Part shown: piece by piece, positions 15,048-22,873 of the stretch
Position numbering within the stretch: position 1 is the first letter of the stretch
How the letters are laid out: the number at the start of each line of letters is the position of its first letter
Source of the DNA: Candidatus Zhuqueibacterota bacterium
Lineage (GTDB): Bacteria; BS750m-G25
Direction of reading: 5' to 3'
Assembly: GCA_016783505.1 (NCBI GenBank)
Contig: JADHWK010000019.1
Span: 1 to 39,478, forward strand
DNA length: 39,478 nt
Program-made: the position numbers and the translations under genes
Notes under the pieces: model-generated
Told to the model about the DNA's origin: nothing
The model's database searches: none
Seen by the model: the letters and a program-made list of their open reading frames with translations, nothing else

Positions 15048-18000
15048 CTATTTCAACAAAATCAACTTTCGTGTCTGCGAAAATTCACCGGCTTGAAGGC
15101 GGTAAAAATAAATACCGCTGGCTATACTTGTTGCATCCCATTGAACTTGATGGTATCCAGCTTCTTGAGTTTGGTCAACAAGGGTTGCTACTTCTTGACC
15201 CAAAAGATTATGAATCCTTAAGGTTACTTCTGAAGATTTTGGAAGGGCATATTTAAAAGTTGTTATTGGATTAAATGGATTGGGATAATTTTGACTCAAC
15301 GAATATTCGCTTGGAATATTTGAAAAATTGTCACTAATTCCTAAAAGCCCTAACGTTGCCGTGGCAACATCTTCGATCACGGACTCTTCATTCCAGCGAA
15401 GCCTCTGAAGGGTTACAGTTGTCTCATTCTCGTTGAAGTTCTCATTCACTGTAAAATGTAATGTGGTAAAAATCCCTTCCTGACCATCGGGAAGCGATCC
15501 AGCTCCGGCAACTTTTATTTCCCCTGAATCTACATCTGTCTCAATGGTAAAACCATCAACTAATTCTGACCAGACCAAACTATCAAAAGTCAAATGCTCT
15601 GGATTGAAGGTTATCAAACCTTCAAAGGCAAGGATATTGTCTCCATTGCTCAAATATAGTGGCACTTGAACAAGTTGCCCGGGTTGAATTTCGCCATCCT
15701 CCATGCTAATATCACCGGAAGCATGCAACAATCCGAGGGTGGTATCGTAAGGAAGGATATCAATAAGCCCAACGAAATATTGAAGAATCAATGAAGCATC
15801 TAAGGCAGAAACGGTAGTGTCCAAACTGACATTGGCATTTAGTAATTGTTGATTATTGAGGTCTATGTAATCCACAAGATATTTTAAAATAAGCGATGCA
15901 TCATAAGGGGTCACCTCACCATTCAAGCTAACATCACCATAATTTGGGATAAATTGAACATTGACGCCACCAGACGTAATATCTATTGGCAAATCACTTT
16001 CATCAAACAATGCTGAAATAAGTGTAATGGGAATAAAGCCAGAAGCTGTATCCGGAACTGCGAATTTCAATCGGAAGAGAACACCTTCACCGCTTATGTC
16101 CTCAGCTCCTGCAGAGGCTGTTATGAGCAAACTATCTGTTTCATTAACTTGGTAGGCCCATCCTGCAGCTCCAATTAAACTACCGGTTGTATCCACTTCT
16201 ATGAAATCCAATAGACCCAAATAATCTCCAAAAATGATTCCAGCGGAACTAAAGGAAGAGTCAATAGGAAACTGGACATTGACAGGTACAAGCACAGAAT
16301 CACTTGGCATAGCATTAATTATTGGAATAGTAAGGTAGATCTCACTAATTAGTAGATCATTCTGTATAATATACATACCATCCTCCCCATCGGCCACATA
16401 GGCGTAACTGCCGCTGACGGCAACGCCAAAAGCTTCGCCACCCGTATCAAAGAAGCCCACTTCCTGCGGGGAGGAAGGGGTGGAGACGTCAATGATGCGT
16501 AAACCATCCAAATAATCGGCCACATAGGCGTAACTGCCGCTGACGGCAACGCCATAAGCTAAGCTGCCCGTATCAAAGAAGCCCACTTCCTGCGGAGAGG
16601 AAGGGGTGGAAACGTCAATGATGCGTAAACCATCCCAGTAATCGGCCACATAAGCGTAACTGCCGCTGACGGCAACGCCACGAGCATAGCTGCCCGTATC
16701 AAAGAAGCCCACTTCTTGCGGGGAGGAAGGGGTGGAGACGTCAATGATGCGTAAACCAGCATCCCAATCGGCCACATAGGCGTAACTGCCGCTGACGGCA
16801 ACGCCCAAAGCACTGCCACCCGTATCAAAGAAGCCCACTTCCTGCGGAGAGGAAGGGGTGGAGACGTCAATGATGCGTAAACCATCCTCCTCATCGGCCA
16901 CATAGGCGTAACTGCCGCTGACGGCAACGCCTACAGCATCGCCACCCGTATCAAAGAAGCCCACTTCTTGCGGGGAGGAAAGGGTGGAGACGTCAATGAT
17001 GCGTAAACCATCCGAATGATCGGCCACATAGGCGTAACTGCCGCTGACGGCAACGCCACGAGCAAAGCTGCCCGTATCAAAGAAGCCCACTTCCTGCGGG
17101 GAGGAAGGGGTGGAGACGTCAATGATGCGTAAACCATCCCGGTGATCGGCCACATAGGCGTAACTGCCGCTGACGGCAACGCCTAAAGCATAGACACCCG
17201 TATCAAAGAAGCCCACTTCCTGCGGGGAGGAGGGGGTGGAGACGTCAATGATGCGTAAACCATCCAAATGATCGGCCACATAGGCGTAACTGCCGCTGAC
17301 GGCAACGCCACGAGCACTGCTGCCCGTATCAAAGAAGCCCACTTCCTGCGGGGAGGAGGGGGTGGAGACGTCAATGATGCGTAAACCATCACTCCTATCG
17401 GCCACATAGGCGTAACTGCCGCTGACGGCAACGCCACAAGCCTGGCCAGCCGTATCAAAGAAGCCCACTTCCTGCGGGGAGGAAGGGGTGGAGACGTCAA
17501 TGATGCGTAAACCATCCAAATAATCGGCCACATAGGCGTAACTGCCGCTGACGGCAACGCCATAAGCCTGGCCACCCGTATCAAAGAAGCCCACTTCCTG
17601 CGGGGAGGAGGGGGTGGAAACGTCAATGATGCGTAAACCATCCCAGTCATCGGCCACATAGGCGTAACTGCCGCTGACGGCAACGCCATAAGCCATGCTG
17701 CCCGTATCAAAGAAGCCCACTTCCTGCGGGGAGGAAGGGGTGGAGACGTCAATGATGCGTAAACCATCCCAGTAATCGGCCACATAGGCGTAACTGCCGC
17801 TGACGGCAACGCCATAAGCTTCGCCACCCGTATCAAAGAAGCCCACTTCTTGCGGAGAGGAAGGGGTGGAGACGTCAATGATGCGTAAACCATCCCAGTA
17901 ATCGGCCACATAGGCGTAACTGCCGCTGACGGCAACGCCATAAACTATTGACGGCGTTACTATCTTTCCTAATTCAACGGGATTTGCCGGATCTGATATA

Positions 18001-18284
18001 TCTACAACTTCAAGATAGCCCCCATTACCAAAATAGGCAATGTTACCCGATACATCCACGGCATAACAGGGACCATTTGCCCACCTTCCTATTAGTGTAG
18101 TATTACTATCGTCTAAGGCTTGAAAAGTCTCCTGCGGTGTGAAGGTTATATGGTGGCGAATATCCCTTGATGGGAGCTGTTCCGGGGGCACATTTGCTGG
18201 TCTGTTATTCTGACCAAAAGCAAGACTGCAAAATAAGATTGCAATCATTACTGTCTCTAAAATTTTACCATATTTCAATGACAT
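15048..18284 (-). CDS. T9SS-secreted LVIVD beta-propeller with cohesin, dockerin and sorting domain
   Basis: A 1078-residue exported protein. In order: signal peptide (1-25, FCSLAFG), one divergent propeller unit, twelve 42-residue LVIVD units (core YAYVAD..DGLRIIDVSTPSSPQ) and a thirteenth cut short; a cohesin-like domain (about 640-775); a dockerin-like pair with calcium-loop character (GDVSLNGEVTPYDASLIL and SLDTTVSALDASLIL, about 780-845); a second cohesin-like domain (about 850-985); and a type A T9SS domain (NYPNPFNPITTFKYAL to LLK). The 126-bp DNA repeats are nearly identical except for a few codons per unit. RBS GGAGG precedes the ATG at 18284. Promoter 18428-18456, terminator 14994-15028; monocistronic. 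Probably a surface or released binding scaffold; the ligand is unknown. Confidence 0.93.
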   Translation of the reverse strand: MSLKYGKILETVMIAILFCSLAFGQNNRPANVPPEQLPSRDIRHHITFTPQETFQALDDSNTTLIGRWANGPCYAVDVSGNIAYFGNGGYLEVVDISDPANPVELGKIVTPSIVYGVAVSGSYAYVADYWDGLRIIDVSTPSSPQEVGFFDTGGEAYGVAVSGSYAYVADYWDGLRIIDVSTPSSPQEVGFFDTGSMAYGVAVSGSYAYVADDWDGLRIIDVSTPSSPQEVGFFDTGGQAYGVAVSGSYAYVADYLDGLRIIDVSTPSSPQEVGFFDTAGQACGVAVSGSYAYVADRSDGLRIIDVSTPSSPQEVGFFDTGSSARGVAVSGSYAYVADHLDGLRIIDVSTPSSPQEVGFFDTGVYALGVAVSGSYAYVADHRDGLRIIDVSTPSSPQEVGFFDTGSFARGVAVSGSYAYVADHSDGLRIIDVSTLSSPQEVGFFDTGGDAVGVAVSGSYAYVADEEDGLRIIDVSTPSSPQEVGFFDTGGSALGVAVSGSYAYVADWDAGLRIIDVSTPSSPQEVGFFDTGSYARGVAVSGSYAYVADYWDGLRIIDVSTPSSPQEVGFFDTGSLAYGVAVSGSYAYVADYLDGLRIIDVSTPSSPQEVGFFDTGGEAFGVAVSGSYAYVADGEDGMYIIQNDLLISEIYLTIPIINAMPSDSVLVPVNVQFPIDSSFSSAGIIFGDYLGLLDFIEVDTTGSLIGAAGWAYQVNETDSLLITASAGAEDISGEGVLFRLKFAVPDTASGFIPITLISALFDESDLPIDITSGGVNVQFIPNYGDVSLNGEVTPYDASLILKYLVDYIDLNNQQLLNANVSLDTTVSALDASLILQYFVGLIDILPYDTTLGLLHASGDISMEDGEIQPGQLVQVPLYLSNGDNILAFEGLITFNPEHLTFDSLVWSELVDGFTIETDVDSGEIKVAGAGSLPDGQEGIFTTLHFTVNENFNENETTVTLQRLRWNEESVIEDVATATLGLLGISDNFSNIPSEYSLSQNYPNPFNPITTFKYALPKSSEVTLRIHNLLGQEVATLVDQTQEAGYHQVQWDATSIASGIYFYRLQAGEFSQTRKLILLK
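16377..17945 (-). repeat. Tandem 126-bp repeats encoding LVIVD blades (12 full units and part of a 13th)
   Basis: Twelve full in-frame 126-bp units and a partial one. Most bases are identical between units, with a handful of synonymous changes (for example TTCCTGCGGGG against TTCTTGCGGAG). Differences concentrate in two windows: two codons before DG (YW, DW, YL, RS, HL, HR, HS, EE, WD, GE) and the residues around a fixed Ala (GE-A-Y, SM-A-Y, GQ-A-C, SS-A-R, VY-A-L, GD-A-V and so on). Confidence 0.95.
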
Positions 18285-18528: not shown

Positions 18529-20022
18529 TTATTTCATCAAAACCATCTTCCTCACCTTTTGAGACTCCCCCGCTTGAATTTTATAAAAATAGATTCCGGA
18601 TGAATAACCGGATGCATACCATTGAATTTTATAATAACCAGGTTCTTGATATGAATTCACTAATTCAGCCACTTGTCGGCCCAGGAGGTTATAGATTCGT
18701 AAGGTTACTTCTGCAGGTTTTGTAAGGCCGTATTTAAAGGTTGTTATTGGATTAAATGGATTGGGATAATTTTGCTCCAGATTAAACGATATTGGTATCT
18801 CATTAACATATTCTCTTATAGAAGTAGTAGTACTCTCGTATTTTATGGTTATGCAATCAAAGCCAAAGCTATCTGTTTGGGTTGTTCCGGTCACATAAAG
18901 ATAACCTGAAGCATCCACGGTGCAACTACTGCCATAGTCACCACCATTGGCAGGACCACTGTATCTTGTCGTCCACAATGTATCCCCATTGGCGGAATTA
19001 TACTTTATAGTAAAACAATCATCATTACCTCCATTATCCCCATTTAAACAAGTCCCCGTCACATAAAGATAACCCGAACCGTCCAAAGCACAGCCAAGAG
19101 ATTGATCATAACTTGTAGGACCATCATATATGCTAGTCCAGACAGGATTTCCTGAAGGATCATATTTTATTGTAACGCTGTATCTATTTCCCCTATCTGC
19201 TTCGATACCACACATTCCAGTTACATAGATATTACCTAAACCATCCACGGTGCAATCCGAATGCCCCCCATATTTCAAACTATCAATGGTATCCTGAGAT
19301 CTTCTGGTCCAGGTCGTATCGCCGTTGGAATCATATCTTATTGTAAGCAGGTTATAGTCTACTCCATTGTACGAGTAACCATTCACAAAAATATTACCTG
19401 AAACATCTACCGCACAGCCATATGCTACGTCGCGCCCATTAGCAGTGCCATCATATCGCCGGGTCCAGATAGTATCTCCGTTTACATTGTATTTGACAGT
19501 GATGTAGTCAAAGTTTATACCATTATGGGAGAGGCCTGTCACATAAATGTTACCTGAGCCATCCAAAGCACATTCTTGAGCACTATCATATCCATCGGCA
19601 GCACCATTATATGTCCGGGTCCAAATAGTGTCGCCGCTAGAAGTATTGTACTTGATGATAATAAAGTCTTTATTCGTGTCATTGTTTGAAAACCCAACCA
19701 CATAAATATTCCCTGAATTGTCTAACACACAGCCCACAGCCCCATCACCACTATTAGCATCACCATTATATCTACGTGTCCAGATAGTATCGCCGTTAGA
19801 TGTATTATATTTGATAATAATAAAATCAGTATTCGTGCCATTAAATGAACTACCAACCGCATAAAGATTACCTTGATTGTCTGCGGCACAGTCCGCGGCA
19901 TCATCATAGCCATTTCCAAGCCCATTATACGTACTGATCCATAATATATCCGGGGCCTGGGCAAGAGACTTTCCGGTCACAATCAAGAATAGAAACGTTA
20001 GCAAAAATGAGTATTTTCTCAT
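18529..20022 (-). CDS. T9SS-secreted SBBP-type beta-propeller protein
   Basis: A 497-residue exported protein. The signal peptide ends near SLAQA. Residues 25-405 hold about seven repeats of 55-60 residues of the SBBP (seven-bladed beta-propeller repeat) type: a blade core such as DNSGNIYVVGFS, then DFIIIKYN and GDTIWTRRYNG. The last ~80 residues are a type A T9SS sorting domain (NYPNPFNPITTFKYGL...KMVLMK), removed when the protein is exported and anchored. RBS GGGAG precedes the ATG. Promoter at 20145-20173, terminator at 18469-18507. A strong ribosome site in the leader starts an 11-codon ORF (20093-20128). Function beyond a surface propeller is unknown. Confidence 0.92.
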   Translation of the reverse strand: MRKYSFLLTFLFLIVTGKSLAQAPDILWISTYNGLGNGYDDAADCAADNQGNLYAVGSSFNGTNTDFIIIKYNTSNGDTIWTRRYNGDANSGDGAVGCVLDNSGNIYVVGFSNNDTNKDFIIIKYNTSSGDTIWTRTYNGAADGYDSAQECALDGSGNIYVTGLSHNGINFDYITVKYNVNGDTIWTRRYDGTANGRDVAYGCAVDVSGNIFVNGYSYNGVDYNLLTIRYDSNGDTTWTRRSQDTIDSLKYGGHSDCTVDGLGNIYVTGMCGIEADRGNRYSVTIKYDPSGNPVWTSIYDGPTSYDQSLGCALDGSGYLYVTGTCLNGDNGGNDDCFTIKYNSANGDTLWTTRYSGPANGGDYGSSCTVDASGYLYVTGTTQTDSFGFDCITIKYESTTTSIREYVNEIPISFNLEQNYPNPFNPITTFKYGLTKPAEVTLRIYNLLGRQVAELVNSYQEPGYYKIQWYASGYSSGIYFYKIQAGESQKVRKMVLMK

Positions 20023-20230: not shown

Positions 20231-22873
20231 CTATTTTAGCAAAATCATCTTCCTCACCTTTACAAACTCCCCCGCTTGAATTTGACAAAAATAGATCCCA
20301 GATGAATAATCGGTTGCATCCCAATTTATCTGGTGGTAACCGGCAGGTTGATGCTGGGCCACCAAAGTGGCCACTTCTCGTCCGAGGATGTTAAATATCT
20401 TCAGGGTTACTTCTGACTCTTTAGGGAGACCGTATTTGATGGTGGTTATTGGATTGAAGGGGTTGGGGTAGTTCGGGGAAAGTGAAAATTGTGTGGGCAC
20501 TAAAACTATATTTTCATCAATTGAAACCATACCATATTCATACGCTCCTATATCCGGTGCTGAACCGACATATTCATCTGGTGAAAGATTCACCAATATA
20601 TCACCTTCCCAGACAAAAAAGGCGGTACCAGCATCTATGCAAGGTGAGCCTTCTTGAAGATGGAAATCACCGTTTTCTGGATCTACAAACAACGGATCGG
20701 CATCGATATTTCCATCCAGCCAATAAACAGTGCCATTATCATTAGTTACAATGCTATCTTGACCACCCTGCACGTCTGAATAAGCAATAGTAACGGAATT
20801 AGGATCACCACAATCGGCAAAATAAATTTCCTGAGGATAACCATTCCAGAGAATGGTATTCACCAAACTTGGGCTGGAATTATCTTGACAGGCAATCCCA
20901 CCGCCCCAATCCGCCGTATTCCCGGTGATGGTCACATTCACCAAACTTGGGCTAGAAATATTACAGTCAATCCCGCCACCACCAACAGTAGCCGTATTCC
21001 CGCTCACCGTAACATTCTCCAGACTAGGGTTGGAATTATCATGACAGTGAATTCCACCACCATTACTAGTAGCCGTATTCCCGCTCACTGTTACATCCGC
21101 TAAATTCGGGTTGGAATAATGCCCACAGGAAATCCCACCACCACATCCAACAGTCGTATTCCCGCTCACCGTAACATTCTCCAGACTCGGGCAGGAATGA
21201 TTCTGACAGTGAATCCCCCCCCCGTTTGAAGCCATATTTTCGCTCACCGTCACATTCACTAGGGTTGGGCTGGAATTATCCAAGAAAATCCCGCCGCCCC
21301 AACCAGAAGCCGTATTCTCGCTGATTATCACATTCACTTGAATTATGCTGGAATTAGTACAATTAATCCCGCCACCATTATAAGCCATATTCCCGGTGAT
21401 GGTCACATTCACCATACTCGGGTTGGATTCATAACAGTAAATCCCGCCACCAGAACTAGCCGAACCGTTTGTAATCATAAACCCACTTAAGACTGCCGTG
21501 GAGTCTTCACCATTCTCAAACATCACCACAGTTCCACTACTATCACCGTCTATCACCGTCTGGGAGATGTATGATGTGTCGCCTGTAGTAAGGGTAAGTG
21601 ATCCGACAATAATGTTTTTACCATTGAAGTTGATGTTTTCTATATAGGTGCCTGGACTAACCAAGACAGTGTCCCTATTGGTTGCAGAATTGATGGCGTA
21701 TTGGATTGTAGCAAATGGATTACTTTCAGAACCATCACCTGTTTCATCAGAACCTGTGATAGAGACGTACCAGATAGGGCCGGAGTAGGCCGCAGTAGGG
21801 CTTTTCTTGGCATATTTAAGGTCCCCCAGATCCGCATCATAATAAGCGATGTGAGAATAACCACTATCGTCAATAGCGACTGAAGTCCAGCCACATGACA
21901 CTGTATTATCTACAACCTCGGTCTGCCAAGTAGAACCATCCCAATAAGCATACTTCAACGGACCATTTCCATCATAACTGATGTGTGGACGGTCATTTGT
22001 ATCAAGAGCCAGAGATGTATAATTCCCAACCCATGGCTCAGAATCTACTATTTCGATCTGCCAGGTACTGCCATCCCAGTATGCATATTTAGCTCGCGAA
22101 GTGCCGAAGTAATCCTTATAGGCTATATGCGGATAGCCCAGACTGTCCAAGGCAATAGAAGAGAATTGGCCTACAGCACCATCTGTATCTACCCTCTCAA
22201 TATGCCAAGTCGAGCCATCCCAATAAGCGTACTTCAGATCAAATTCACTATCATCATAGTAGCTTAGGTGGGGATAATTACTATCGTCTAAAGCTATGGA
22301 GCAATACTCAAATTCACCACCGAGAAGAGTATCAGCGCCCTGGGTATGCCAGCCTGAAGCATCCTTGTAAGCATATCTTAAATAGCAATCTCCTGTATAA
22401 GTATAACCCGTATATGCAAAATGGGGATAGCCATCTCCATCCATGACGATAGAATTCCACTGACCTACTGTACCTGACCAGACTAATGAATCCACTCCTT
22501 CTTGCAGCCAGTTTGTACCATCCCACCAAGCGTGCCAGAACTGGTCGCCGTACCAGAGGCCTTTATCGAAGGCAATGTGGGGATTTTCAGCAGTATCAAG
22601 GGCAATAGAAGTCACCCCATAAACACTTACAGTTGTTTCCACCGATGCTATCTGCCATAAAGAACCATCCCAGTGGGCGTACTTAAGGCGCCAACCAATG
22701 GTACCATCCCTGTAACTAATATGAGGATTGCCATTTATATCGGTGGTAATGGCACACTTCACACCAACCGTTCCTGTAGTATCTACGGTCTCTAAATTCC
22801 ATTGTGCGTATAGCACTACCGGTAAGATGGCTATCACAGTGGCAATCATTTTGATTGATGCTGATTTCTTCAT
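20231..22873 (-). CDS. T9SS-secreted propeller plus parallel beta-helix protein
   Basis: An 880-residue exported protein. A signal peptide ends near VLYAQW. Residues 25-365 hold seven or eight repeats of about 46 residues with LKYAYWDGSTWQ and YPHISYYD, a propeller-like module. From WYVSITGSDETGDGSESNP a DUF1565-type right-handed parallel beta-helix begins, with about eight rungs of the form GGGIxCxxxSxPSLxNVTVSGNTA, ending in IDAGTAF and APDIGAYEYG. A type A T9SS domain closes it (NYPNPFNPITTIKYGL...KMILLK). RBS GGGG precedes the ATG at 22873; promoter at 23090-23118. Beta-helices of this type bind or cleave polysaccharides, but no catalytic residues could be assigned. Confidence 0.92.
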   Translation of the reverse strand: MKKSASIKMIATVIAILPVVLYAQWNLETVDTTGTVGVKCAITTDINGNPHISYRDGTIGWRLKYAHWDGSLWQIASVETTVSVYGVTSIALDTAENPHIAFDKGLWYGDQFWHAWWDGTNWLQEGVDSLVWSGTVGQWNSIVMDGDGYPHFAYTGYTYTGDCYLRYAYKDASGWHTQGADTLLGGEFEYCSIALDDSNYPHLSYYDDSEFDLKYAYWDGSTWHIERVDTDGAVGQFSSIALDSLGYPHIAYKDYFGTSRAKYAYWDGSTWQIEIVDSEPWVGNYTSLALDTNDRPHISYDGNGPLKYAYWDGSTWQTEVVDNTVSCGWTSVAIDDSGYSHIAYYDADLGDLKYAKKSPTAAYSGPIWYVSITGSDETGDGSESNPFATIQYAINSATNRDTVLVSPGTYIENINFNGKNIIVGSLTLTTGDTSYISQTVIDGDSSGTVVMFENGEDSTAVLSGFMITNGSASSGGGIYCYESNPSMVNVTITGNMAYNGGGINCTNSSIIQVNVIISENTASGWGGGIFLDNSSPTLVNVTVSENMASNGGGIHCQNHSCPSLENVTVSGNTTVGCGGGISCGHYSNPNLADVTVSGNTATSNGGGIHCHDNSNPSLENVTVSGNTATVGGGGIDCNISSPSLVNVTITGNTADWGGGIACQDNSSPSLVNTILWNGYPQEIYFADCGDPNSVTIAYSDVQGGQDSIVTNDNGTVYWLDGNIDADPLFVDPENGDFHLQEGSPCIDAGTAFFVWEGDILVNLSPDEYVGSAPDIGAYEYGMVSIDENIVLVPTQFSLSPNYPNPFNPITTIKYGLPKESEVTLKIFNILGREVATLVAQHQPAGYHQINWDATDYSSGIYFCQIQAGEFVKVRKMILLK

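Follow-up and report, generated by a model that had tools for sequence, protein, structure and literature searches.

The gene at positions 15048-18284 (minus strand) of the window, i.e. the entire analysed stretch of 39,478 nucleotides, probably encodes a modular extracellular recognition protein built as a double propeller, the specificities of which have been exchanged and subsequently conserved. According to this explanation, the protein would be exported to the cell surface by the T9SS, and its 14 LVIVD blades would fold into two seven-bladed propellers; each blade would add to a common scaffold four to seven variable residues that all lie on the same side of the ring, namely the pair X-Ala-X within the d-a loop and the pair XX within the b-c loop. 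The 14 small recognition modules would jointly form one binding surface, putatively for a glycan, a protein or the surface of another cell. The likeness of the framework would result from purifying selection on the fold and from recombination between blades, presumably by gene conversion or unequal exchange in whole-ring steps; with a new specificity of a gene copy or locus type, the loop residues would be reshuffled and replaced and then held by purifying selection.

Judged by its profile matches, the 1078-aa gene product is a member of the PF08309 family (609 bits in the Pfam scan at a cut-off of 20.2, in 14 stretches) and of the choice-of-anchor B family (NCBIfam TIGR04312; 229.9 bits, curated cut-off 100); the LVIVD family was first described in cell-surface proteins (PMC2447325). 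All features are encoded on the minus strand. A hydrophobic N-terminal leader, as read from the sequence (residues 1-24; 18213..18284), is a probable signal peptide. It is followed by the predicted seven-bladed propeller 1 (residues 57-353; 17226..18116; AF2 model, match to 2ymu), with an N-terminal d strand as velcro and a divergent first blade, and by the predicted seven-bladed propeller 2 (approximately residues 354-643; 16356..17225; HMM count of 14 blades); the split was placed after blade 7 because of the blade counts of the relatives. The C-terminal part comprises a type I dockerin (residues 782-836; 15777..15941; PF00404, 25.6 bits), a cohesin (residues 867-961; 15402..15686; PF00963, 41.2 bits) and, as the last domain, a C-terminal sorting domain of T9SS type A (residues 1000-1075; 15060..15287; PF18962, 39.1 bits; TIGR04183, 44.8 bits at a cut-off of 23). 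This sorting tail and the presence of a homologue of the T9SS translocon protein SprA in the source genome (PF14349, 146 bits, at G000:C3) suggest that the protein is displayed on the cell surface. The cohesin and dockerin part beside the propellers (15402-15941) is present in this gene only and absent from its paralogues on contigs C5 and C26; it may link subunits. The neighbourhood constitutes a cluster of surface proteins rich in repeats: two neighbours with a T9SS tail are repetitive as well, namely an SBBP propeller-repeat protein (18529-20022), in which a 159-bp unit is tandemly repeated at 19602-19929, and a Chlam_PMP repeat protein (20231-22873), which contains repeats of 78-81 bp at 20858-21452. 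PADLOC revealed no defence-system match for the LVIVD gene and three neighbours.

Twelve full 126-bp units with a near-identical framework occupy positions 16377..17888 of the minus strand (TRF and unit alignment). TRF returned a period of 126 with 12.3 copies at 16389-17943, in frame within the 1078-aa ORF; the twelve full units are preceded by a divergent blade and followed by a capped one, which brings the total to 14. The preliminary description had reported near-identical units with the framework changes STL, TAG and DAG, had listed the dipeptides before DG and the residues flanking a fixed Ala, and had claimed that the loop codons diverge more than the framework: The units, the changes and every one of the listed residues were reproduced, and the per-position rate check bore out the claimed contrast. 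With unit numbering starting at LRIIDV, the variable codons of the twelve full 42-aa units are 21-23 and 25, assigned to the d-a loop, and 39-41, assigned to the b-c loop, with positions 23, 25, 39 and 40 as the core. In the framework of the twelve units, pS was 0.066 and pN 0.002, versus a pN of 0.44 at the seven variable columns and of 0.64 at the four core columns, where the loop rates are near saturation; the nucleotide divergence between inner blades was 0.593 (core) versus 0.057 (framework), and 4.9% of the same-residue codons in the framework comparisons differed. The distances of loop A, loop B and framework were uncorrelated (Mantel P 0.17-0.91), which argues against the loops being mere markers of recent unit duplication. 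In this array, loop likeness of adjacent units was not above that of distant ones, and the lag analysis gave no lag-7 signal of a seven-unit block duplication. The core residues are enriched in Y, G, W, D, S and R (Y and W together 24%), a richness that is expected of binding surfaces.

The restriction of the changes to short stretches, with all three codon positions affected, might be taken to indicate a diversity-generating retroelement or a comparable process of mutagenesis aimed at the loop codons. However, there was no reverse transcriptase (PF00078) match in the source genome (60% complete), the variable codons are unlike those of the adenine-template kind, and two variable stretches per blade are found in all blades; such an origin is thus considered most improbable.

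The AF2 model of seven blades alone (17226-18116) was obtained with a pLDDT of 95.7 and a pTM of 0.93 and contained exactly 28 strands; its best solved matches are seven-bladed, with 2ymu on top (Z 37.5, rmsd 1.6, 264 residues). DSSP analysis of this model assigned position 23 to the d-a loop, position 25 to the beginning of strand a and positions 39 and 40 to the b-c loop, in agreement with the earlier placement of the variable codons in propeller loops. It is a general feature of propellers that the d-a loops lie on the same face as the b-c loops; the variable residues are therefore expected, from the strand order of the model, on a single face of the ring. A model of the complete 14-blade set was weak (pTM 0.59): Its first ring closed at eight blades, residues 28-353 matched eight-bladed chains, and its Foldseek matches were tandem double propellers; on account of the weakness and the eight-bladed first ring it was dropped for residue placement. 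Nearly identical blades are known to make such models ambiguous (PMC9218822). In our view, the closure at eight blades reflects such an ambiguity, yet it counts against two seven-bladed rings.

The number of blades was determined by HMM in 99 blocks uncut by contig ends: 7 blades were present in 28 blocks, 14 in 35, 21 in 2 and 28 in 1, i.e. multiples of seven in 66/99 (52/83 for the window and the GTDB scan alone) compared with a chance expectation of 1/7 (P about 1e-23 to 1e-32). The next commonest numbers were 6 and 13 (8 blocks each), most of which probably reflect an end blade missed by detection, and no block with 8, 9, 15 or 16 blades was found among the 99. In the Microcystis homologues that share the N-terminal lead, 7+7 or 14+7 blades are separated by linkers that we take to be Calx-beta-like. 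These layouts and the multiples of seven support two seven-bladed rings. The speculation of the preliminary description that the 14 blades form two seven-bladed rings is supported by the blade counts of the relatives and by the seven-blade model, but not by the 14-blade model that closed eight blades first.

The GTDB genome scan (one genome per species) yielded 79 loci spread over many bacterial and archaeal phyla, and 1176 units were found with the blade HMM. In nearly all homogenised arrays checked, from several phyla, the same loop columns ranked highest in diversity, despite different framework sequences. None of the 40 genomes of relatives, all from other families, belonged to the genus or family of the source organism; the genome collections contained no sufficiently close orthologue of the gene at 15048-18284, and the IMG/VR viral contigs no relative of it. 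The source genome G000 is a MAG of 2.5 Mb in 89 contigs with a completeness of 60%, the copy on contig C26 has 13 blades, and Illumina assemblies have been documented to garble comparable fungal repeat arrays (PMC12222747); collapsed or chimeric repeats from the assembly of short reads might thus be suspected as the cause of the pattern. Against such an artefact, the 1078-aa frame is intact and comprises exactly 14 blades (the order of which may still be wrong), multiples of seven recur across many assemblies, and the same pattern is present in Microcystis locus L149, with a divergence of 0.041 in the framework and 0.550 in the core, in a genome assembled as a single 5.45-Mb contig. An assembly origin of the pattern is accordingly regarded as very unlikely.

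Two paralogous arrays are present in the source genome, at C5:60047-61582 (14 blades) and at G000:C26:26417-27844 (L003, L153; 13 blades); the latter breaks the rule of sevens, with a blade either lost or collapsed in the assembly. Signal region, framework and variable columns of both are as in the LVIVD gene; the loop residues differ. Between same-position blades of the paralogues in G000 the framework identity amounted to 0.94-0.98, that of the core only to 0.09-0.17. Some units deviate in length (L002 units 5 and 8, L003 unit 7: 39, 40 and 43 aa), and two of them drop residues of the b-c loop; the loops thus also vary by whole codons. In the 112 codons of leader and first blade, C5 and C89 of G000 differed with a pN of 0.102 and a pS of 0.084, i.e. 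fast change appears to extend outside the array. Loop-B hexamers were common to different loci in 13 pairs versus 5.5 by column shuffling (P<0.001), an excess that suggests that loops have moved from blade to blade and from locus to locus; part of this sharing could be convergence. The silent divergence between the loci of G000 was low (0.12-0.15 in the blades, 0.08-0.12 in the N-terminal 112 codons), indicating that the loci are young; since the value for the blades is not below that of the N-terminus, the silent sites do not call for inter-locus exchange. A framework identity of 0.965 versus 0.911 for the N-terminus had at first sight seemed to prove inter-locus conversion; this argument was rejected after the silent-site check.

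These silent divergences, taken together with the value of 0.066 within the array, are compatible with the recent occurrence of all steps, i.e. with a scenario in which one blade was recently amplified and its copies then diverged rapidly at specific positions, in the loops only, with no gene conversion involved. A cycle of amplification and differentiation has reportedly been proposed by Pereira and Lupas in 2022, and recent amplification is documented in many propeller families (PMC9218822). In the blade tree, however, the first blades of the LVIVD gene, its paralogues and the relatives L019 and L020 clustered by position, as did mostly the second blades, and the internal blades of the source genome formed one group; the blades of L019b and L020 paired strictly by position (framework identity 0.90 for the same and 0.69 for other positions). 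The positional grouping of blades 1 and 2 indicates that the ancestral state was probably a capped gene with 14 blades; likewise, L019 and L020 are capped 14-blade relatives with diverged, position-specific blades, and the orthology of their first blades to those of the LVIVD gene suggests that the 14 blades probably preceded the blade likeness. In addition, approximately 1.4 changes per site would be needed in the loops while the silent sites gained 0.07 (JC correction, near saturation), and loop-B hexamers are common to the loci beyond chance. Amplification followed by differentiation alone is in our opinion unlikely; rather, the internal blades of the source genome were probably made alike after an ancestral 14-blade stage, via conversion or re-amplification. 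The homogenisation put forward in the preliminary description is hence favoured over recent re-amplification by the blade tree, but it is unproven.

The diversifying selection on the loops proposed in the same place was supported only in part. In orthologues in register, the ratio of loop dN to framework dS was low: 0.19 for L019b/L020 (95% interval 0.03-0.43), 0.07 for L019a/L024 and 0.17 for L085/L088, and the loops of these three pairs are conserved. In contrast, the loops were replaced in the tandem paralogues L019a/L019b (1.81; 1.12-2.94) and between the Microcystis locus types (second ring, L143 vs L146: 3.41, 95% interval 1.93-7.97), and a ratio of 2.15 was obtained for G057-G042; the framework dN/dS was 0.13-0.30 in all compared pairs. 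The Microcystis loci L143, L144, L145, L146 and L147 share an N-terminal lead and exhibit two classes of loops in the last ring; pairs of the same type had ratios of 0.24 and 0.57. Retained as well as replaced loops are thus seen when different Microcystis species are compared. By these comparisons the loops appear to define types: They would have been switched and then retained. A hypervariation that is still under way, comparable to allorecognition or antigenic variation, i.e. loops that differ among strains and change at present, would be in line with the excess of loop dN over framework dS between the Microcystis types and in G057-G042 and with the unrelated same-position loops of the G000 paralogues; the retention of the loops in the three other orthologue pairs and within the Microcystis types (0.07-0.57) speaks against it and makes it a conceivable but rather doubtful reading. 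Exchange of specificities followed by their conservation remains the preferred one.

Among known systems, the fungal HET-D/E sensor comes closest, although the LVIVD protein is not a member of that family: The Pfam scan of the gene product gave no WD40, NACHT or HET match. The WD40 domains of the Podospora anserina HNWD proteins (HET-D, HET-E, HET-R) consist of blades of approximately 42 aa under concerted evolution, with four codons of the top face under diversifying selection that form two hypervariable pairs flanking or adjoining a fixed residue; reactive alleles have been modelled as two seven-bladed propellers (PMC1805685, PMC2873952, PMC12222747). The likeness to fungal NWD repeats claimed in the preliminary description is supported by this literature, since high internal conservation and paired hypervariable codons on one predicted face are common to both. 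Unlike the HNWD proteins, the LVIVD array is not of the WD40 family, is bacterial and predicted to be extracellular, and some orthologues keep their loops. The WRAP-type WD40 propellers (Nostoc 2ymu) likewise possess near-identical blades and represent the best structural match, but differ in sequence family and cellular context. In the literature on the LVIVD/choice-of-anchor B family, no report was found of loop hypervariability, a seven-fold blade rule or specificity types.

The recurrent design, together with loops that outpace silent sites in some lineages, suggests an exchangeable recognition surface. The likeliest role of the LVIVD protein would be to bind a partner, a glycan or a surface specifically, through contacts that the 14 blades contribute on one or both rings. 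A more far-reaching interpretation, to which we attach little probability, is that LVIVD rings constitute a prokaryotic modular code, with blades in sevens, a homogenised framework, loop pairs exchanged as units and inherited specificity types for kin or partner recognition, possibly including a specialised mechanism directed at the loop codons. The scheme of the fungal self/non-self sensors would extend to a different family of repeats, at bacterial and archaeal cell surfaces. By the rule of sevens and four core positions per blade, specificity would become readable from sequence, and the rate test between orthologues tells frozen from switching loci; the Microcystis set L143-L147 offers a natural system for specificity types. 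If the core positions set the choice of ligand, the LVIVD rings may serve as a natural scaffold for designed binders and allow strain-recognition typing in Microcystis and other uncultured groups.
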